44,706 bases of DNA from Candidatus Poribacteria bacterium (lineage in GTDB: Bacteria > Poribacteria > WGA-4E > WGA-3G), in contig VXMD01000012.1 of the NCBI GenBank assembly GCA_009841255.1, positions 1-44,706 on the forward strand, read 5' to 3'. The notes beneath the pieces were generated by a model. It made no database searches. It was given only the letters and a program-made list of their open reading frames with translations, and had not been told where the DNA came from. A program made the position numbers and the translations under genes. Positions within the stretch are counted from its first letter, which is position 1; each line of letters starts with the position of its first letter. Positions 2,282 to 43,707 of the stretch are shown here, piece after piece.

Positions 2282-3550
2282 CTATTCGCATATATGACTT
2301 GTCCTCTGACAAACGACGATGTTTTCTTCGTGCATCGTTTTAGATGTTTCGCCTGCAATATTAGAAGGGCTGTTCTTCTTCGGCATCCGTTTGTTCGGTA
2401 TGTTTCTGACGATGGTAGCCTTATGGACAAACCCATGCTGACGAAAGGCATCAACAACAAAATCGTCAGTCGGTAGCATAACTCCCTTGACTCGGCGATT
2501 CCCAACGACATAGCATATTGTCGCGTGCGGCGAACACACTTGTGCTATTGAATTGATGCTACGCTCAAGGTCAATGTAAAACGCAGACACTTCCTCCGCT
2601 CGCTTCTCATCAACCGAACGGATTTTCTCAACAGCAGACGATACCGGAGAGTTGGTCAATGTTTCTTTTGAACGAAGTCCGCCCATTGCGAGTTTGTCAA
2701 CTTTGCGAGCATTTGGTAATCCTATCCATTCTGCTGCGAGCCGAGAAAATTGCCCATACGCGACGGTGGTCTGTGAGTCCCCGTAAGGAGGGGATGTAAT
2801 CACTATATCATACCCGGCAGGTGGATGCGGTGTTGGGAGTTCACCTTGAACGGTATTTACCATAGATACCGATACTTTAACATTTTTTCGTCTTTCAAGG
2901 TAGGATGCCAATCCTTGCCGATTTCTACGCAATTTCTTGGTAAAGATGCCTAAAACGTCAGGCTTGAAGTCTTTAAGTTTGTTGGTAGGCATGCGATATA
3001 ATTTAAACTCGCCATTCCGGGTATAGGATACCTCTCGAACGGTTTCTGAAAAAGCAATGAGTATGAAGTTCTGTAATGCTTTATCTCTTACATGGCTAAT
3101 CCGAGCTCGGAGGTGGGCGAGAGTTCTGATAACTTCATCAGAGAACCAATACGCCAGATTTAGGATGTTGGGAATCGGAGGATCAGAGAGATTACTTTCT
3201 CGGTATCCAATCTCAAAGAGATACTCGTTTAATTCGGTTAGCGTTTCGTCTAAGGTGGACAAACAAACTGGAGTTGACTTGGCAGTCGCTATCAGACGCA
3301 CGAGGGGATTAATGTCACATCCAACGCTATGCATACCGAATAGAGATGCCTCCACCAGAGAAGTGCCAGTGCCACAGTAAGGATCGAGAAGCCACCCATC
3401 TTCTGTGCCGTACTCCTTAAGCAGTTTCCGTGCGATCTGCGGGATCATCATTGCGGGGTACGTGTGGAAACAGTGGGTGTACTCTTTGGTATCCGCCTCT
3501 CGAAAGTCCCACGACTCGTCTTTATATTTCTTCAGATTCAATACACTCAT
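2282..3550 (-). CDS. DNA methyltransferase with SPPY motif (modification partner of the adjacent restriction enzyme)
   Basis: A 422-residue amino-methyltransferase. S-adenosylmethionine motif I is clear near residues 53-63 (L-L-D-P-Y-C-G-T-G-T-S), followed by the acidic motif II region (G-C-D-I-N-P-L). Catalytic motif IV is T-S-P-P-Y-G-D-S near residue 253. SPPY, rather than DPPY or NPPY, is typical of N4-cytosine methyltransferases, so m4C is the best guess. Motif I precedes motif IV with about 190 residues between them, which could hold the target recognition region. The C-terminal C-Y-V-V-G-N-R-R-V-K-G segment is usual for this group. The start overlaps the endonuclease stop (ATGA), so enzyme and methylase are coupled, nuclease first. 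The partner belongs to the MvaI/BcnI family, whose known members cut CCNGG-type sites and are paired with m4C methylases; the actual site here is unknown. Confidence 0.85.
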   Translation of the reverse strand: MSVLNLKKYKDESWDFREADTKEYTHCFHTYPAMMIPQIARKLLKEYGTEDGWLLDPYCGTGTSLVEASLFGMHSVGCDINPLVRLIATAKSTPVCLSTLDETLTELNEYLFEIGYRESNLSDPPIPNILNLAYWFSDEVIRTLAHLRARISHVRDKALQNFILIAFSETVREVSYTRNGEFKLYRMPTNKLKDFKPDVLGIFTKKLRRNRQGLASYLERRKNVKVSVSMVNTVQGELPTPHPPAGYDIVITSPPYGDSQTTVAYGQFSRLAAEWIGLPNARKVDKLAMGGLRSKETLTNSPVSSAVEKIRSVDEKRAEEVSAFYIDLERSINSIAQVCSPHATICYVVGNRRVKGVMLPTDDFVVDAFRQHGFVHKATIVRNIPNKRMPKKNSPSNIAGETSKTMHEENIVVCQRTSHICE

Positions 3551-18417: not shown

Positions 18418-21276
18418 CTAACCTACGGATGCGATCTCCAAATTGCCGCGCCAGTGTTTCTGTAACATCCGCTTCAATACCTGATGCTCATGCGCGTTCA
18501 GTGCGGGATCGGTTTTGATGAGTGACTCTGCCTCTTTCTTCGCCGCTTCTAAAAGTGTCGCATCGTGAATGATGTTTGCTATCTTGAAATTTGGGACACC
18601 CGATTGGCGTGTGCCAAAGAACTCACCAGGACCCCTGATGTTCAAGTCTGCCTCTGCAATCCGAAACCCGTTGTTCGTCCGAATCATCGCTTGAATCCGC
18701 TGAAAAGAGTCGTCTCCCCGCGGCGAAGCGACAAGGTAACACGCCGATTGATGCGCTCCGCGTCCGACACGTCCGCGCAACTGATGCAATTGGGACAACC
18801 CAAACCGTTCTGCATTCTCAATCACCATCAACGTGGCGTTTGGCACATCAATACCTACTTCAATCACTGTGGTTGAGACCAGAACATCGATGCGTCGATC
18901 CTTGAAGTTCGTCATTACTTCCTGTTTCTCAATAGATTTCATTTGCCCATGCAGAAGTCCGAGACGCAGATCGGGGAATACCTCACTTTGAAGGTGCGCT
19001 GCCATTTCTGTAGCGGCTTTGAGTTCCTCGAGTTTCTCCGACTCCTCAACGAGTGGATAGACGACGTATGCCTGTCTGCCGCGTTGAATCTCCTTCCGAA
19101 CGGTGCTGTATAATTTCTCCCGTTCTTTCTCCCTTATCCAATAGGTCTTAATCGTCTGTCTACCGGGGGGCATCTCATCGATAACAGAGACGTTCAGATC
19201 CCCATAGAGCGTTAATGCCAGTGTTCTTGGAATCGGGGTCGCAGTCATGACGAGTACGTCCGGTGTTGGAGGAGCAGTGGCACGCCGCTTTTGCGTCTCA
19301 TTTGCTGCTTGTGCCTTGTTACGGAGGGTCGCGCGTTGCATCACACCGAACCGATGCTGCTCGTCGATAATAACGAGTCCGAGTCTGTGAAAATCGACCC
19401 CTTCCTGTATCAACGCCTGTGTCCCAACGATGAGATCTGCGGTCCCCTCGGCAATTGCCGCCAGTGCTTCTTCGCGCTCTGATCTCGGTAGGTCGCTTTT
19501 AAGCAGTACAACGTTTATGTTCTCGTTCCCTGCTTGCGTCGCACCCTTGTGCAAACCCGTGAGCATCTCTGAAAGATTGTAATAGTGTTGCTCAGCGAGA
19601 ATTTCAGTAGGCACCATCAGCACGCCTTGATATCCGTTTTCGATAGCACAGAGCAACGCCATCGCCGCAACAACCGTTTTTCCTGAACCGACATCGCCTT
19701 GAATGAGTCGATTCATGACGGTTTGCTGCCGCATATCGTTTTGGATCTCAGCGAACACCCGTTTTTGTGCCCCAGTGAGTTCATAAGGCAGCGAAGCCAA
19801 GAAATCGCGTAATATTGTACCGCCGGTTTCCTCTATAGGAGATCTGCGCTCAGGAGATGTTCCAGGTTCTGCTTCCATTCCGATCCGAAACGCAATACCG
19901 TCCTCCGAGATACGCCGTTCCTTTTTCATCTCCATGCCGACGCTGAGAAGAAAAAACTCCTCAAAAGCGAGCCGTTTTTGTGCTGCTTCCCGATGTGCCT
20001 CTGATGTTGGAAAGTGTATCTCGTTAAGGGCGGATTGTCTGTCAATCAAGCGTTGGCGTTGGCGGAGTGCGAGCGGCAAGATTTCGGGTATCTGTTGTCC
20101 GTATTCATCCAACGCGGTTCGCATCCACGCCCGCAGCATCTTCGCCGTGAGCTTTGCCGTGAGCGGATATTTCGGAACGATTCGATTCGTGTGGATTAGG
20201 TTATCTTCCTCAAACAGTTCAAATTCATAGTCCGTGGCTTGGATTTCATTGTAACGGCGAGCGAATTTTCCACTGACGACAACCTCGGTATCAACGGGAA
20301 GCAGTGCTTTCATAATACCGATACGTCTACCGAAGTTAACGAGGAGTGCGACCCCCGTGCCGTCGTAAATTGAAATCTTACCGATGCGTTTCCCTTTTGC
20401 TGTCGGAGATGATGTGTGATTGACGACCTTACCTTGTATTGTTTCAGGTTCGTCATCTTCCCTTCTTCCGACTCTGTAAATCTCTACCATTTTGGATCGG
20501 TCGATGTAATCACGCGGGTAGTATGCGAGGAAATCACCGACCGTTTGGAGACTGAGCTCCCCTTGAAGCATCTCGGCGCGACGCGGACCAATCCCCTTGA
20601 GATACTGAAGCGGTTGGGATAGAAATTCAAGCGAATCGAGGTCGGTTGAAACAGGGGTGTCTGAGATTGGGACGGATTCTGAATGGCTGTCGGACGTCGG
20701 CGGTCGGCGGTCAGCGGGGCCATTGCCGGCTATTTCTTGCTGATTGCCAATTGGCTGCTGGCTATTTCGTTGTGAGGGAGGGTCTGTGTCTTGGAAAAGG
20801 GGCAAATCTTCTGTTGGTACCGTAGCGGCCGGACGTTCCTGTTTTGGAGACTCGCTTTCCGGTTTACTTTCTACTTCCGCAAAGAGAGACAACATATCCG
20901 TTTGGGCACTTTTTTTCGAACTGACACGCGGCGCCTTTGGCTGTTGACGTGTTTGCGTCGGTTCGGCACGTGTCCCGATGCTCTCCGAGGCGTTTGGTTG
21001 TCCGTGCCGGAGTGCGGTGTCAATTCGTTTTGCTGCCTCCTCAAGTATTCGTTGTCGTTGGGTGGACGACGCGCCGGTGTAATTTTCAAAGAGGTCTGCT
21101 AAACCCTTCAGGACCTCTCTCTCGGCTGTTGATAGTGTGAAGGTCTCACCATTTTTCACCCACAACCGGACATAACTCCCCAATCCGTTGACGACAACAT
21201 CGTCGCGGCACCCCTTTCGGAGCTCTTGTTGAAAGGGACGACGGATAGTGTTAAGGATTTTTGTGAAGTTGTTCAT
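18418..21276 (-). CDS. recG: ATP-dependent DNA helicase RecG with long N-terminal extension
   Basis: A 952-residue RecG. The wedge domain begins near residue 215 (L-Q-Y-L-K-G-I-G-P-R-R-A-E-M-L). Helicase motifs follow in order: G-D-V-G-S-G-K-T-V-V-A (Walker A, near 525), D-E-Q-H-R-F-G-V, T-A-T-P-I-P-R-T-L-A and Q-L-R-G-R-V-G-R-G-A-H-Q-S. RecG remodels stalled forks and branches. Typical proteins are about 680-830 residues; the extra 200 N-terminal residues comprise a short helical region and a low-complexity linker rich in Q, P, S and D (about 110-210). Part of this linker (N-Q-Q-E-I-A-G-N … A-D-R-R-P-P-T-S-D) looks like translated intergenic repeat DNA. No strong ribosome site is seen before the ATG. 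Confidence 0.95.
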   Translation of the reverse strand: MNNFTKILNTIRRPFQQELRKGCRDDVVVNGLGSYVRLWVKNGETFTLSTAEREVLKGLADLFENYTGASSTQRQRILEEAAKRIDTALRHGQPNASESIGTRAEPTQTRQQPKAPRVSSKKSAQTDMLSLFAEVESKPESESPKQERPAATVPTEDLPLFQDTDPPSQRNSQQPIGNQQEIAGNGPADRRPPTSDSHSESVPISDTPVSTDLDSLEFLSQPLQYLKGIGPRRAEMLQGELSLQTVGDFLAYYPRDYIDRSKMVEIYRVGRREDDEPETIQGKVVNHTSSPTAKGKRIGKISIYDGTGVALLVNFGRRIGIMKALLPVDTEVVVSGKFARRYNEIQATDYEFELFEEDNLIHTNRIVPKYPLTAKLTAKMLRAWMRTALDEYGQQIPEILPLALRQRQRLIDRQSALNEIHFPTSEAHREAAQKRLAFEEFFLLSVGMEMKKERRISEDGIAFRIGMEAEPGTSPERRSPIEETGGTILRDFLASLPYELTGAQKRVFAEIQNDMRQQTVMNRLIQGDVGSGKTVVAAMALLCAIENGYQGVLMVPTEILAEQHYYNLSEMLTGLHKGATQAGNENINVVLLKSDLPRSEREEALAAIAEGTADLIVGTQALIQEGVDFHRLGLVIIDEQHRFGVMQRATLRNKAQAANETQKRRATAPPTPDVLVMTATPIPRTLALTLYGDLNVSVIDEMPPGRQTIKTYWIREKEREKLYSTVRKEIQRGRQAYVVYPLVEESEKLEELKAATEMAAHLQSEVFPDLRLGLLHGQMKSIEKQEVMTNFKDRRIDVLVSTTVIEVGIDVPNATLMVIENAERFGLSQLHQLRGRVGRGAHQSACYLVASPRGDDSFQRIQAMIRTNNGFRIAEADLNIRGPGEFFGTRQSGVPNFKIANIIHDATLLEAAKKEAESLIKTDPALNAHEHQVLKRMLQKHWRGNLEIASVG

Positions 21277-40938: not shown

Positions 40939-42303
40939 CTAACGGAGCAACAGCACAGCGAGAATGCCAAATACCGGTAGCAAGGCGATTAAAACTTTGA
41001 CTTCAACCAGATAATTTTTGTAACGTTGAACCGCAGAATTCTGCTCTATCCACTGGTTGACGAATTCAATGCGTCGATGGATGGATGGGTGGGTGTTGAA
41101 GATTTCAAAGAAACGCTGAATCGACCTCGGTACTGAATTGAGTACTGCCAGTTTCGCCAAAGCGCCTTTGAATGCTTCTGGTTTCTCCGTAAGCCTAACC
41201 GCATATAGATCGGCTTGATGTTCGCAACGCCTTGACAAATACCGAAAGATAACTATGAAATAAATGATGAGAAAGGTCAGCGAACATAACGTCGATACGA
41301 CTGACAAAAGAGACTGTGATTCTCCGAGGTATGCTACCAGCGGTTCTTCAACAAGAAGATAGAAAAAGGGATAATTCAAGAGATAGAAGAGTGAAAAAAG
41401 CATATATGTCGGAATGTGCCGATAGCGGATATGTCCAAGTTCATGAGCGACGACAGTTTCAATTTCCTCATCCGTGAAGTATTCGAGAAGGGCGTCTGTC
41501 AAAAAAATCCGCCGATTCCACGGAAAGGTCCCTGCGACAGCCGCGTTGGCTATTAACAGGGAACCGGTTTGCCACACGACAACCTCCCGGTATTTTATGC
41601 CGCTCTGCCTCGTCAATCGGTCCAATTTCTCCTTCAACACCGAATCCGCCGCGAGTCGTTCTGTTTTCCATAGAAGCTGCATCAATAACGGAGCAAAGAT
41701 ATACACGGAAATAATTACGGGTAGAATCAGCCCAATTAGGATGTACGGATGTTCAACAATGAACACTTTTGCTGAATAGGGAAGCCAGTGAATCGCGTCC
41801 ATTATCAGCAAATAAAGGAACATCGGCAGCAGCGGGAACAGCAGAAATTTGAATTGCAGACTGAGAATTTCTCTGTAGTGTCCGGATTGCAGTTTATTCA
41901 CCCGATAAAACGCAAGTCGGATACAGATGAGTCCGACCAGCAGGGGAAGTAACGCAAGGGTCTGGCGCAGATGTGCCATTGGAAAGAATGAAAAATGCTT
42001 GTCAATCAGCATCGGCAGATTCAGCAGATACAGATTGCAGAGGTACGCCGCTAAACTGAGGCACTCAAAAACAATCATGAAGTGCCGCAGGCGATAGAGT
42101 GTTGGTAGGTTCTCCTCTTTGTGAGCCGGAAAGGTTCTCGCCACATACGCTGTCACGAAACAGGTGATAAGAATAGGGAAACCTGTTAGGACGATTGTCC
42201 AGAGGACCACCTGCGCATCACTGATGTTCAGACTTGTTTGCGGCGGCTCAAAGGAAAACAGAAAGAGCAGCCCAGCAATTAAGATAATACTTATTTGTCC
42301 CAT
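40939..42303 (-). CDS. M48 family membrane metalloprotease
   Basis: A 454-residue protein with several N-terminal transmembrane helices (about residues 5-210) followed by a peptidase domain. The zinc-binding H-E-L-G-H motif lies near residue 289 in V-V-A-H-E-L-G-H-I-R-Y-R-H, and the third ligand Glu is likely in the C-E-H-Q-A-D-L-Y-A segment. This is the layout of HtpX/Ste24-like M48 proteases, which degrade or process membrane proteins with their active site at the cytoplasmic face. Further hydrophobic segments occur after the motif and at the C-terminus. It is monocistronic on the minus strand, divergent from the RNA/OmpA region. Confidence 0.92.
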   Translation of the reverse strand: MGQISIILIAGLLFLFSFEPPQTSLNISDAQVVLWTIVLTGFPILITCFVTAYVARTFPAHKEENLPTLYRLRHFMIVFECLSLAAYLCNLYLLNLPMLIDKHFSFFPMAHLRQTLALLPLLVGLICIRLAFYRVNKLQSGHYREILSLQFKFLLFPLLPMFLYLLIMDAIHWLPYSAKVFIVEHPYILIGLILPVIISVYIFAPLLMQLLWKTERLAADSVLKEKLDRLTRQSGIKYREVVVWQTGSLLIANAAVAGTFPWNRRIFLTDALLEYFTDEEIETVVAHELGHIRYRHIPTYMLFSLFYLLNYPFFYLLVEEPLVAYLGESQSLLSVVSTLCSLTFLIIYFIVIFRYLSRRCEHQADLYAVRLTEKPEAFKGALAKLAVLNSVPRSIQRFFEIFNTHPSIHRRIEFVNQWIEQNSAVQRYKNYLVEVKVLIALLPVFGILAVLLLR

Positions 42304-42425
42304 TTTTTAATCTTTCCTTGCGGAGGAATTCGGACACGTCATAGCATTTTAACGTATCTCGTATCAAAAATCAAGAGTGTTTTAAAGCGTTATTTCAGTT
42401 GCTTTCGCATTTGTGAAAAAAACTC

Positions 42426-42455
42426 TTGACTTTTCTAAAGAAAAAGTTGTATAAT
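42426..42455 (+). promoter_or_regulatory. Sigma-70-type promoter upstream of the structured RNA and OmpA gene
   Basis: TTGACT (42426-42431), an 18-bp spacer and TATAAT (42450-42455). Transcription would start near 42462, about 365 nt before the OmpA-domain ORF, so it yields either a long leader or a separate RNA. Confidence 0.75.
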
Positions 42456-42528
42456 TTATATCAAAGCACCTGTGAGAACAAATTGCTTGCAGGTCTCCCA
42501 TATTGCGAGTTCATTTTGTATTAGCACT

Positions 42529-42810
42529 TGAACAGCCATCTCACCCCGCCCGTGAAACGGTGGACGGTGTTAGTGTGAAACCACTAAAAACATTCGGACG
42601 CGGTGTAAATCTATATCGGTAGATACCCTCTGCCACGCGCCTCGTCCGCCCTAATAATCATCGCGGTCGGCTTGGTCGAGATGTAAAACGCCTGCGGAGT
42701 CCGTGTAAGCCCGTATACAACCAGCACTACGATGCTGGCGAAGGCAGTGGACGTTGAAACAGGAACTACCTCTACAGACATAATCAGTTATCTGCAATTA
42801 TCTTCTGTAG
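42529..42810 (+). ncRNA. Putative structured RNA resembling HEARO/omega RNA (orphan copy)
   Basis: A non-coding stretch of about 280 bp with GC content higher than its surroundings. Stems visible by eye are TAGTG 42571 with CACTA 42582, CCAGCA 42721 with TGCTGG 42733, and CTACAGA 42772 with TCTGTAG 42804. Blocks such as CTGCCACGCGCC, TAATAATCATCGCGGTC, GATGTAAAACGCCTGCGG, GTGTAAGCCCGTATACAACC and GAAGGCAGTGGACGTTGAAACAGGAAC look like the conserved pieces of HEARO RNAs, the guide (omega) RNAs of IscB/IsrB elements. No IscB, IsrB or TnpB gene is near. It may be a solo element, an unrelated leader of the OmpA gene, or a remnant. The match is from memory, not alignment. Confidence 0.5.
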
Positions 42811-42828
42811 TAAAAGGAGCAGGAATCC

Positions 42829-43707
42829 ATGATAAGTAGAACCGCTTTCACAATTATCGCTCTTCTGGGTGTTGCACTTGTTGTGAGTAGTTGCGGCAAG
42901 TTGGATCAGGAAGAGTTTGAAATGTGGAAGAATGAACATGTCTCGAAGATGGAACAAGCTGAAGCAGACATGTCGAACAAAATTACAATGCTGGATAGCA
43001 AAGTCGACCAACAGGGCAACGATCTAAAAGAAGCTATTTCCAGAGCGAAGGATGAGGCGATTGCAGCGTCCCAGCAAGGGGATGCGGATACTATTGCTGC
43101 TGCGAATCAAAGTGCTAAAGAGCAGAATGCACAACTTCGCGCCGACCTCACAAAGTCTATTGATATGCAAGGGCAAAAAGCGATGGACTTTGCAAAAGGT
43201 GAAGATGCTAAACTGCAAAAACAACTCATGGCGCATGAAGATGCCGATCAAGCCCAAGACGCAGCAATAAAACAGCTGGAGTCTAAAGTCATGGCTTTGG
43301 AAGAAGGGTTAGCCATGGTGGCAGAAGAGGTTGCCGCAGCACCGACCTTGCTGGTTACTGTCAATTTTGCCAGCGGCCGAACGAGTTTATCCGGGGACGC
43401 ACAGCAGATGCTTGATGGTATTGTTGAACAACTCATGGAAGCTTCAGATGCAAAGATCAAGGTTGTTGGACACGCTGATGGCATGCCAGTGCTACAGGGA
43501 AGCTACAGAAGTAATTGGGATCTCTCACAGGCACGCGCGAACTCGGCTGCGAAGTACCTGAAATCCAAGGGAATCAATGTGGGCAGAATTGAGGCTGTTG
43601 GTAAAGCACACACCGATCCGGTTGCGCCACAGAACACTGCCGCCGGCAGAGCCATGAATCGTCGCGTCGAAGTTATTCTGGTTCCTGCACATAGCCATCC
43701 ACATTAA
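42829..43707 (+). CDS. OmpA-domain lipoprotein (Pal-like) with coiled coil
   Basis: A 292-residue envelope protein. It starts with a lipoprotein signal (A-L-V-V-S-S-C-G, Cys near residue 22), followed by a long alanine- and charge-rich helical segment (about residues 30-165) likely to form a coiled coil, and a C-terminal OmpA domain (from V-N-F-A-S-G-R-T-S-L near 179). The peptidoglycan-binding motif is recognisable as V-V-G-H-A-D … L-S-Q-A-R-A-N-S … N-R-R-V-E-V. It probably anchors the outer membrane to the cell wall. An AAAGGAGCAGGA ribosome site precedes the ATG. Confidence 0.92.
   Translation: MISRTAFTIIALLGVALVVSSCGKLDQEEFEMWKNEHVSKMEQAEADMSNKITMLDSKVDQQGNDLKEAISRAKDEAIAASQQGDADTIAAANQSAKEQNAQLRADLTKSIDMQGQKAMDFAKGEDAKLQKQLMAHEDADQAQDAAIKQLESKVMALEEGLAMVAEEVAAAPTLLVTVNFASGRTSLSGDAQQMLDGIVEQLMEASDAKIKVVGHADGMPVLQGSYRSNWDLSQARANSAAKYLKSKGINVGRIEAVGKAHTDPVAPQNTAAGRAMNRRVEVILVPAHSHPH

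Follow-up and report, generated by a model that had tools for sequence, protein, structure and literature searches.

Background

The closest described relatives of the RNA considered here are the RAGATH-18 RNAs, reRNAs that guide the TnpB nucleases of IS607 elements, with AGGAG or GAGGG as the TAM (PMC11061315). TnpB can process the mRNA that encodes it into guide RNA (PMC10278001), and nuclease-dead TnpB proteins, the TldR repressors, likewise use guide RNA (PMC13418256). In the part of the literature covered, searches on TnpB with Shine-Dalgarno sequences, orphan reRNA, non-autonomous IS607 elements and TnpB in Poribacteria returned nothing relevant, and the same partial coverage included no paper describing insertion with a Shine-Dalgarno sequence as TAM or a guide RNA as a gene leader. 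Here we describe a locus that combines the two. Sequence comparison makes it almost certain that the leader of an ompA-family lipoprotein gene, in a 44,706-nt stretch of Candidatus Poribacteria DNA (hereafter the window), contains a solo TnpB-type guide RNA. The genomes compared (G), with their contigs (C) and loci (L), are mostly metagenome assemblies.

The ompA leader and its guide-RNA scaffold

Between ompA and the divergent protease gene, which we take to be of the M48 type from reading its HELGH-type protease sequence, lies a gap of 525 nt (42304-42828) where an ORF check of the window found no credible ORF, so that the non-coding region reported by the initial annotation upstream of an OmpA gene is real. 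Its good promoter is there too, at 11/12 consensus positions, and a scan of the gap found no terminator-like site between that promoter and ompA. The extent given, 42529-42810, proved too short, as the feature runs on through a right end and Shine-Dalgarno sequence to 42822, beside the ompA start (Table 1). The multiple stems described have strong comparative structure support, and a fold energy for 42529-42810 that is only modest (MFE -87.1 kcal/mol, z = -2.16, with 7/200 shuffles equally good); the argument therefore rests on comparison across genomes rather than on folding energy. That no nuclease gene lies nearby is correct: the 44,706-nt window contains neither a TnpB nor an RRXRR (IscB/IsrB-type) gene, and the absence of tnpB is why the element is called orphan or solo.

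Table 1. Features of the ompA leader region and the related tnpB gene (window coordinates unless a locus is named)
Feature	Position	Strand	Remarks
Divergent protease gene	42303..40939	-	Flanks the gap 5' of the ompA leader
ompA promoter	42426..42455	+	TTGACT-18-TATAAT; same block in element-free relatives
Ancestral ompA leader start	42466..42500	+	CTGTGAGAACAAATTGCTTGCAGG hairpin; pre-insertion, from comparison with element-free loci
Decayed remnant of the element's 5' pseudoknot domain	42519..42572	+	Intact in G010/G013; own promoter lost in the window
Linker	42573..42594	+	GTGTGAAACCACTAAAAACATT; among loci examined, only in tnpB-less copies
Variable hairpin	42595..42652	+	CGGACG/CGTCCG (GAATGC/GCATTC in L102); read from sequences
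TnpB guide-RNA (reRNA) scaffold	42657..42765	+	Model R1 and covariation
Scaffold stem-loop	42659-42683	+	Part of the scaffold
Scaffold helix P1	42691-42694 with 42760-42763	+	Covariation
Scaffold helix P2	42699-42703 with 42748-42752	+	Covariation; P3 lies in between
Transposon right end	42766..42822	+	Hairpin 42772-42810 and replacement Shine-Dalgarno AAAAGGAGCAG
Predicted guide place of TnpB guide RNA	42823..42842	+	GAATCC and ompA start; from the right-end junction and PMC11061315
ompA-family lipoprotein gene	42829..43707	+	PF00691; downstream of the leader
C33 tnpB gene	L005:2385-3476		363 aa; OrfB_IS605 and Cas12f1-like TNB domains

The scaffold was recognised with R1, a covariance model whose source alignment (A1) holds 16 reRNAs of the genus, of which 15 lie beside tnpB and one (L058) comes after what is left of a tnpB gene, and excludes every ompA-leader copy, that of the window included. 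The sole match of R1 in 44.7 kb is at 42657-42765, with 79.7 bits and E = 2.9e-19, a value that the tool gives roughly, though not with an error of that size. In A1, 95.4% of the cells of the structure are paired and 12 pairs differ on both sides, against 82.3% and 7.0 double changes in shuffled alignments, none of 500 of which scored as high; a shift by a single column destroys the structure, and RNAalifold on A1 returned essentially the same structure. R1 finds matches in all 38 genomes of the genus (38/38). In the window's own genome a DNA search located the same core directly 3' of the intact tnpB on C33 and at a tnpB-less place on C82, and a pattern scan located it at tnpB 3' ends on C41, C47, C48 and C77, the reversed control pattern giving 0 matches. 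Among the weak Rfam matches the best of a fitting kind is RAGATH-18 (RF03064), which reaches 42691-42765 at 23.0 bits, below its cut-off of 44.9; nor does this model report the tnpB-linked RNAs of the same genome, which indicates that the Rfam model is narrow for Poribacteria.

Insertion between Shine-Dalgarno sequence and start codon

Related elements that still carry tnpB reveal where such copies land. At L098, L109 (G018), L099 (G031) and L097 (G035) the left end stands directly after AGGAG, the junctions being GTTGTTAAGGAG|ATGTTTC, AAAAAAGGAG|TAGTTCC, CAAAAGGAG|TAGTTGC and GATGAGGAG|TAGTTCC, and the right ends read GAAGGAACAG|; a sister genome has the empty place AAGGAA|CAGATGCCAATG, as against the filled AAGGAG|element|CAGATACGTATG. 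A start codon follows 5-9 nt past the right end in 12 of 14 distinct right ends (10 ATG, 2 GTG; raw counts, with one orthologous pair among the 14), and all 12 open at least 221 codons. Together, the AGGAG left junctions and the start codons after right ends place the element between a Shine-Dalgarno sequence and a start codon. At ompA, 23/23 element-free members of the genus examined have TAGGAG|GAAYCC(C)ATG; where these 23 loci read TAGGAG|GAATCCATG or nearly so, the window junction is AAAAGGAGCAG|GAATCCATG. Insertion directly after the TAM AGGAG is thus seen both in the empty sites at ompA and in the left ends of relatives. As judged from sequence, the Shine-Dalgarno sequence is the TAM, and the right end restores a new one (AAGGARCAG). 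A serine recombinase next to a related tnpB on C8 lends some support to placing the group at large in IS607; in the AGGAG-type copies tnpB is the sole gene.

History of the element at ompA

The RNA stands before ompA in 7/9 closely related species, and every ompA relative that bears a name comes from a Poribacteria metagenome assembly. Element-free relatives (L070, L075 and others) have a different long ompA leader. In G010 and G013 part of this ancestral leader remains, and after it come a second promoter-like site, TTGACAATA...TATAGT, and the full 5' domain. The window copy has lost the second promoter-like site, together with some of the 5' domain, and in G008, G017, G024 and G030 the beginning of the leader runs directly into GGTYGAGATG, with half of the first stem-loop deleted; the 5' domain is present in G000, G010 and G013, and the core only in the other four. 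The ancestral leader is itself long and conserved (L070:1250-1500, also L075, L081-L084, L089, L091, L092 and L095), with the sequence blocks GATGCAGTTTCGGGCATTGAAAA ... GACGGGATTTGAGAAGAATTCC; compared with Rfam at E up to 0.5, it falls in no family.

Trees of ompA and M48 join the seven carriers and the element-free G033 and G034 in one clade (G033 on the ompA tree only), the inner order of which neither tree resolves, so that the trees do not separate a single gain followed by losses from spread by recombination. The element-free G033 and G034 inside the carrier clade indicate that the element is not indispensable. The ompA match of one carrier, G010:C1:1424140-1425006 (L072), has one in-frame TAG in its aligned part.

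A transposon remnant probably kept as a leader

The likely explanation is that a solo derivative of an IS607-type TnpB element came to lie between the ompA promoter and start codon and was kept as a leader. At the level of sequence, the scaffold, the right end, the AGGAG junction, the replacement Shine-Dalgarno, the occurrence in seven species and the successive 5' losses are in place. The tnpB element would have inserted on the ompA Shine-Dalgarno with AGGAG as TAM, and its right end would have provided the replacement from which ompA translation now presumably starts. The ompA promoter would then transcribe the solo element as the 5' leader of ompA mRNA, where the folded scaffold and right-end hairpin may act in cis on the stability or translation of the message, guide-RNA function being probably ancestral rather than current. 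That the leader has a present cis function at ompA is, on balance, the somewhat better supposition; that the ompA start is conserved without the element and that half a stem-loop is lost in four carriers both count against it.

From GAGATG to the start codon, the leaders of the carriers agree with one another at 94-99%, set against 62-80% at ompA four-fold sites in distant pairs, and helices P1 and P2 are for the most part preserved in 7/7. Compared pair by pair, the sequences differ on average by 0.055 and 0.095 per site in the scaffold, which lies 60-150 nt before the start codon, by 0.017 in the right end and by 0.007 in codons 1-20; past codon 60 the figure reaches 0.12-0.20 (0.29-0.43 at four-fold sites). 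We take these values to reflect selection acting on the leader and the start region, recombination around the junction being the alternative.

The same figures can be taken to describe an inert scar, an insertion rendered harmless because its right end restored the Shine-Dalgarno, whose apparent conservation comes from recombination or from constraint on the ompA start. Divergence is indeed lowest at the start codon and rises in both directions, the 5' parts are being lost, and early codons are constrained in element-free genomes as well, where four-fold changes in codons 1-20 are 0.15-0.26 vs 0.42-0.49; part of the conservation therefore belongs to the start region itself. Yet a scaffold differing at 0.055-0.095 per site where four-fold sites later in the gene differ at 0.29-0.43, and a P1 and P2 largely retained in all seven, sit badly with decay, and we think it unlikely that the leader is merely a scar.

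Could the RNA still guide a nuclease in trans?

A TnpB encoded elsewhere might trim the RNA out of ompA mRNA, with the ompA start as guide, and the complex would then cut or bind element-free AGGAG|GAATCCATG alleles, so that the element homes by gene conversion. The predicted DNA target is AGGAG|GAATCCATGATAAG (also AGGAG|GAATCCATGATAAGTAGAAC); the element's own locus would be spared because GGAGCAG, which is not a TAM, precedes the guide (non-TAM counterpart GGAGCAG|GAATCCATGATAAGTAGAAC). The window's own genome has about 38 tnpB-like matches, among them the C33-type genes. The C33-type scaffold is very similar to that of the window, and the two TnpBs checked retain the catalytic motifs GIDVGI, GIETL and D(L/V)NAA. 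TAM and target are retained in element-free alleles, a conserved tract centred on the junction is the trace that gene conversion would be expected to leave, and self-trimming of TnpB mRNA into guide RNA offers a precedent (PMC10278001).

Several results weigh against it. Queried with the AGGAG-type TnpB P0001 at E <= 1e-90, G000, G013 and G017 yielded no AGGAG-type TnpB, the RNA persisting there; G013 and G017 gave no match of any kind at that threshold, and in G000 the full-length matches are C33-type genes of 56-58% identity, with a partial match (69%) on C41, where the element ends in a right end of the hairpin type. In G000 it is GGG, not AGGAG, that precedes the C33-type elements. An intermediate TnpB group, 60-71% identical to P0001, occurs in the carriers G008, G010, G024 and G030 and may include a partner there. 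The want of a matching TnpB in three carriers, together with the stem-loop broken in four, makes present use as a trans guide quite improbable in our judgement, and the former favours the cis-acting ompA leader over current guide use.

Other solo copies in the genus

Orphan copies recur in the genus. Copies without tnpB precede the same GHMP-kinase-like gene at L100, L101 and L105 (G014, G027, G032) and a signal-peptide-like protein at L110 (G033). At L112 (G014) a solo guide RNA, its core at 2869 (-), lies between rplK-like and rplA-like genes, and its right end replaces the rplA Shine-Dalgarno; the names GHMP kinase, rplK and rplA are our reading of the translations. The window's own genome has a further orphan at L006, about 2911-2998 (-) (C82:198910-198997), with a hairpin-type right end, CCCAT...ATGGGAGTGTCAA, before a lipoprotein-like gene.

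The tnpB-less copies at ompA, L102/L045 (G033) and L103/L050 (G029) have in common a 5' domain and an invariant linker, the latter not seen in the tnpB-bearing loci examined. In its fold the 5' domain resembles tnpB leaders (for instance L016:1386-1500, L098:2151-2265 (-) and L099:1387-1501): checked sequence by sequence, perfectly complementary pseudoknot strands of differing sequence were found in 11/11 tnpB leaders and 3/3 orphans, counts that are suggestive rather than a calibrated test because the strands were picked by eye. These copies might form a Poribacterial family of RNA-only mobile elements, assembled from their own promoter, a pseudoknotted 5' domain, the linker GTGYGAAAYCACTNAAAACATT, a TnpB scaffold and a right end with Shine-Dalgarno, which would spread via gene leaders with TnpB and TnpA supplied in trans and bring host genes, ompA included, under RNA-guided or structural control; we hold this joint reading to be doubtful.

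Other identities

A HEARO-type RNA working with an IscB or IsrB encoded elsewhere, as the initial annotation proposed, has next to nothing left in its favour: the genome does encode two RRXRR-domain proteins, but the HEARO model (RF02033) has no match in 42300-43000 at E up to 10 and none in the genome (a weak genome-wide negative, the search being also silent in control genomes), the stretch shares no more than a chance run of 11 nt with the RRXRR loci, and its match to a different guide-RNA family, that of R1, is very strong. The two proteins, of about 380 aa, are of the IscB/IsrB type (L036 and L037; C26:152736 and C72:31206), and may use guide RNAs of a type that is not listed.

What stands of the proposal is an OMEGA-type transposon guide RNA without its nuclease, now placed in the TnpB (RAGATH-18/IS607-type) family rather than with HEARO, IscB or IsrB. 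Its alternative, a long leader of an envelope protein, also captured part of the matter, as the RNA does lead an envelope-protein gene while being an orphan guide-RNA scaffold as well. At the ompA locus HEARO is absent and conservation goes with the OmpA gene; the scaffold recurs genus-wide.

Against Rfam at gathering score, the whole window gave nothing. Weak matches in the stretch to psRNA6, P14, MIR1120 and TB8Cs2H1 fell far under their cut-offs and were set aside, as was a phage origin, since phage records gave no match and the linker pattern is absent from viral contigs. Elsewhere in the window, at 19601-19675 (-), the fluoride-riboswitch model scores 22.8 bits (E 0.04), short of its cut-off of 34.

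Implications and comparison with described systems

The locus joins two themes that are usually separate, the guide RNAs of TnpB as tools of transposon maintenance and the long structured leaders of mRNAs. With a Shine-Dalgarno sequence as TAM and a right end that restores it, cheap insertion before essential genes becomes possible, and such insertions could leave guide RNAs fused to host mRNAs. This would be a concrete route to guide-RNA domestication, with stages found in one genus: tnpB-bearing, solo with promoter, solo without promoter, and core only.

Set beside described systems, the window RNA resembles the HEARO/IscB omega RNA (RF02033) in being a guide RNA of transposon origin, OMEGA in the wide sense, and differs in having neither a match to that model nor an iscB/isrB neighbour. 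As far as the available portions of PMC3119063 and PMC7290912 describe them, the palindrome-associated or MITE-like non-autonomous relics of IS200/IS605 are similar in keeping an element end after transposase and tnpB have gone, whereas the window copy retains a full guide-RNA scaffold as a gene leader and is flanked by the IS607-type motif AGGAG. TldR repressors (PMC13418256) also pair a TnpB-family guide RNA with a host gene of the envelope or motility type, and regulation is conceivable here too; by contrast, no TldR gene lies alongside, the two TnpBs checked are catalytically intact by motif, and the start of the host gene itself occupies the guide place, with no TAM in cis. The nearest relative is the RAGATH-18 reRNA of IS607 TnpB (RF03064; PMC11061315), with which the window copy has in common the core helices, the motifs CCTGYGGAGTCC ... 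GGACGTTGAARCAGGAA, the AGGAG TAM and a guide place right after the right end, and from which it departs in scoring below the Rfam cut-off, in having no adjoining tnpB, and in lying within the leader of a host gene to which it provides the Shine-Dalgarno sequence.
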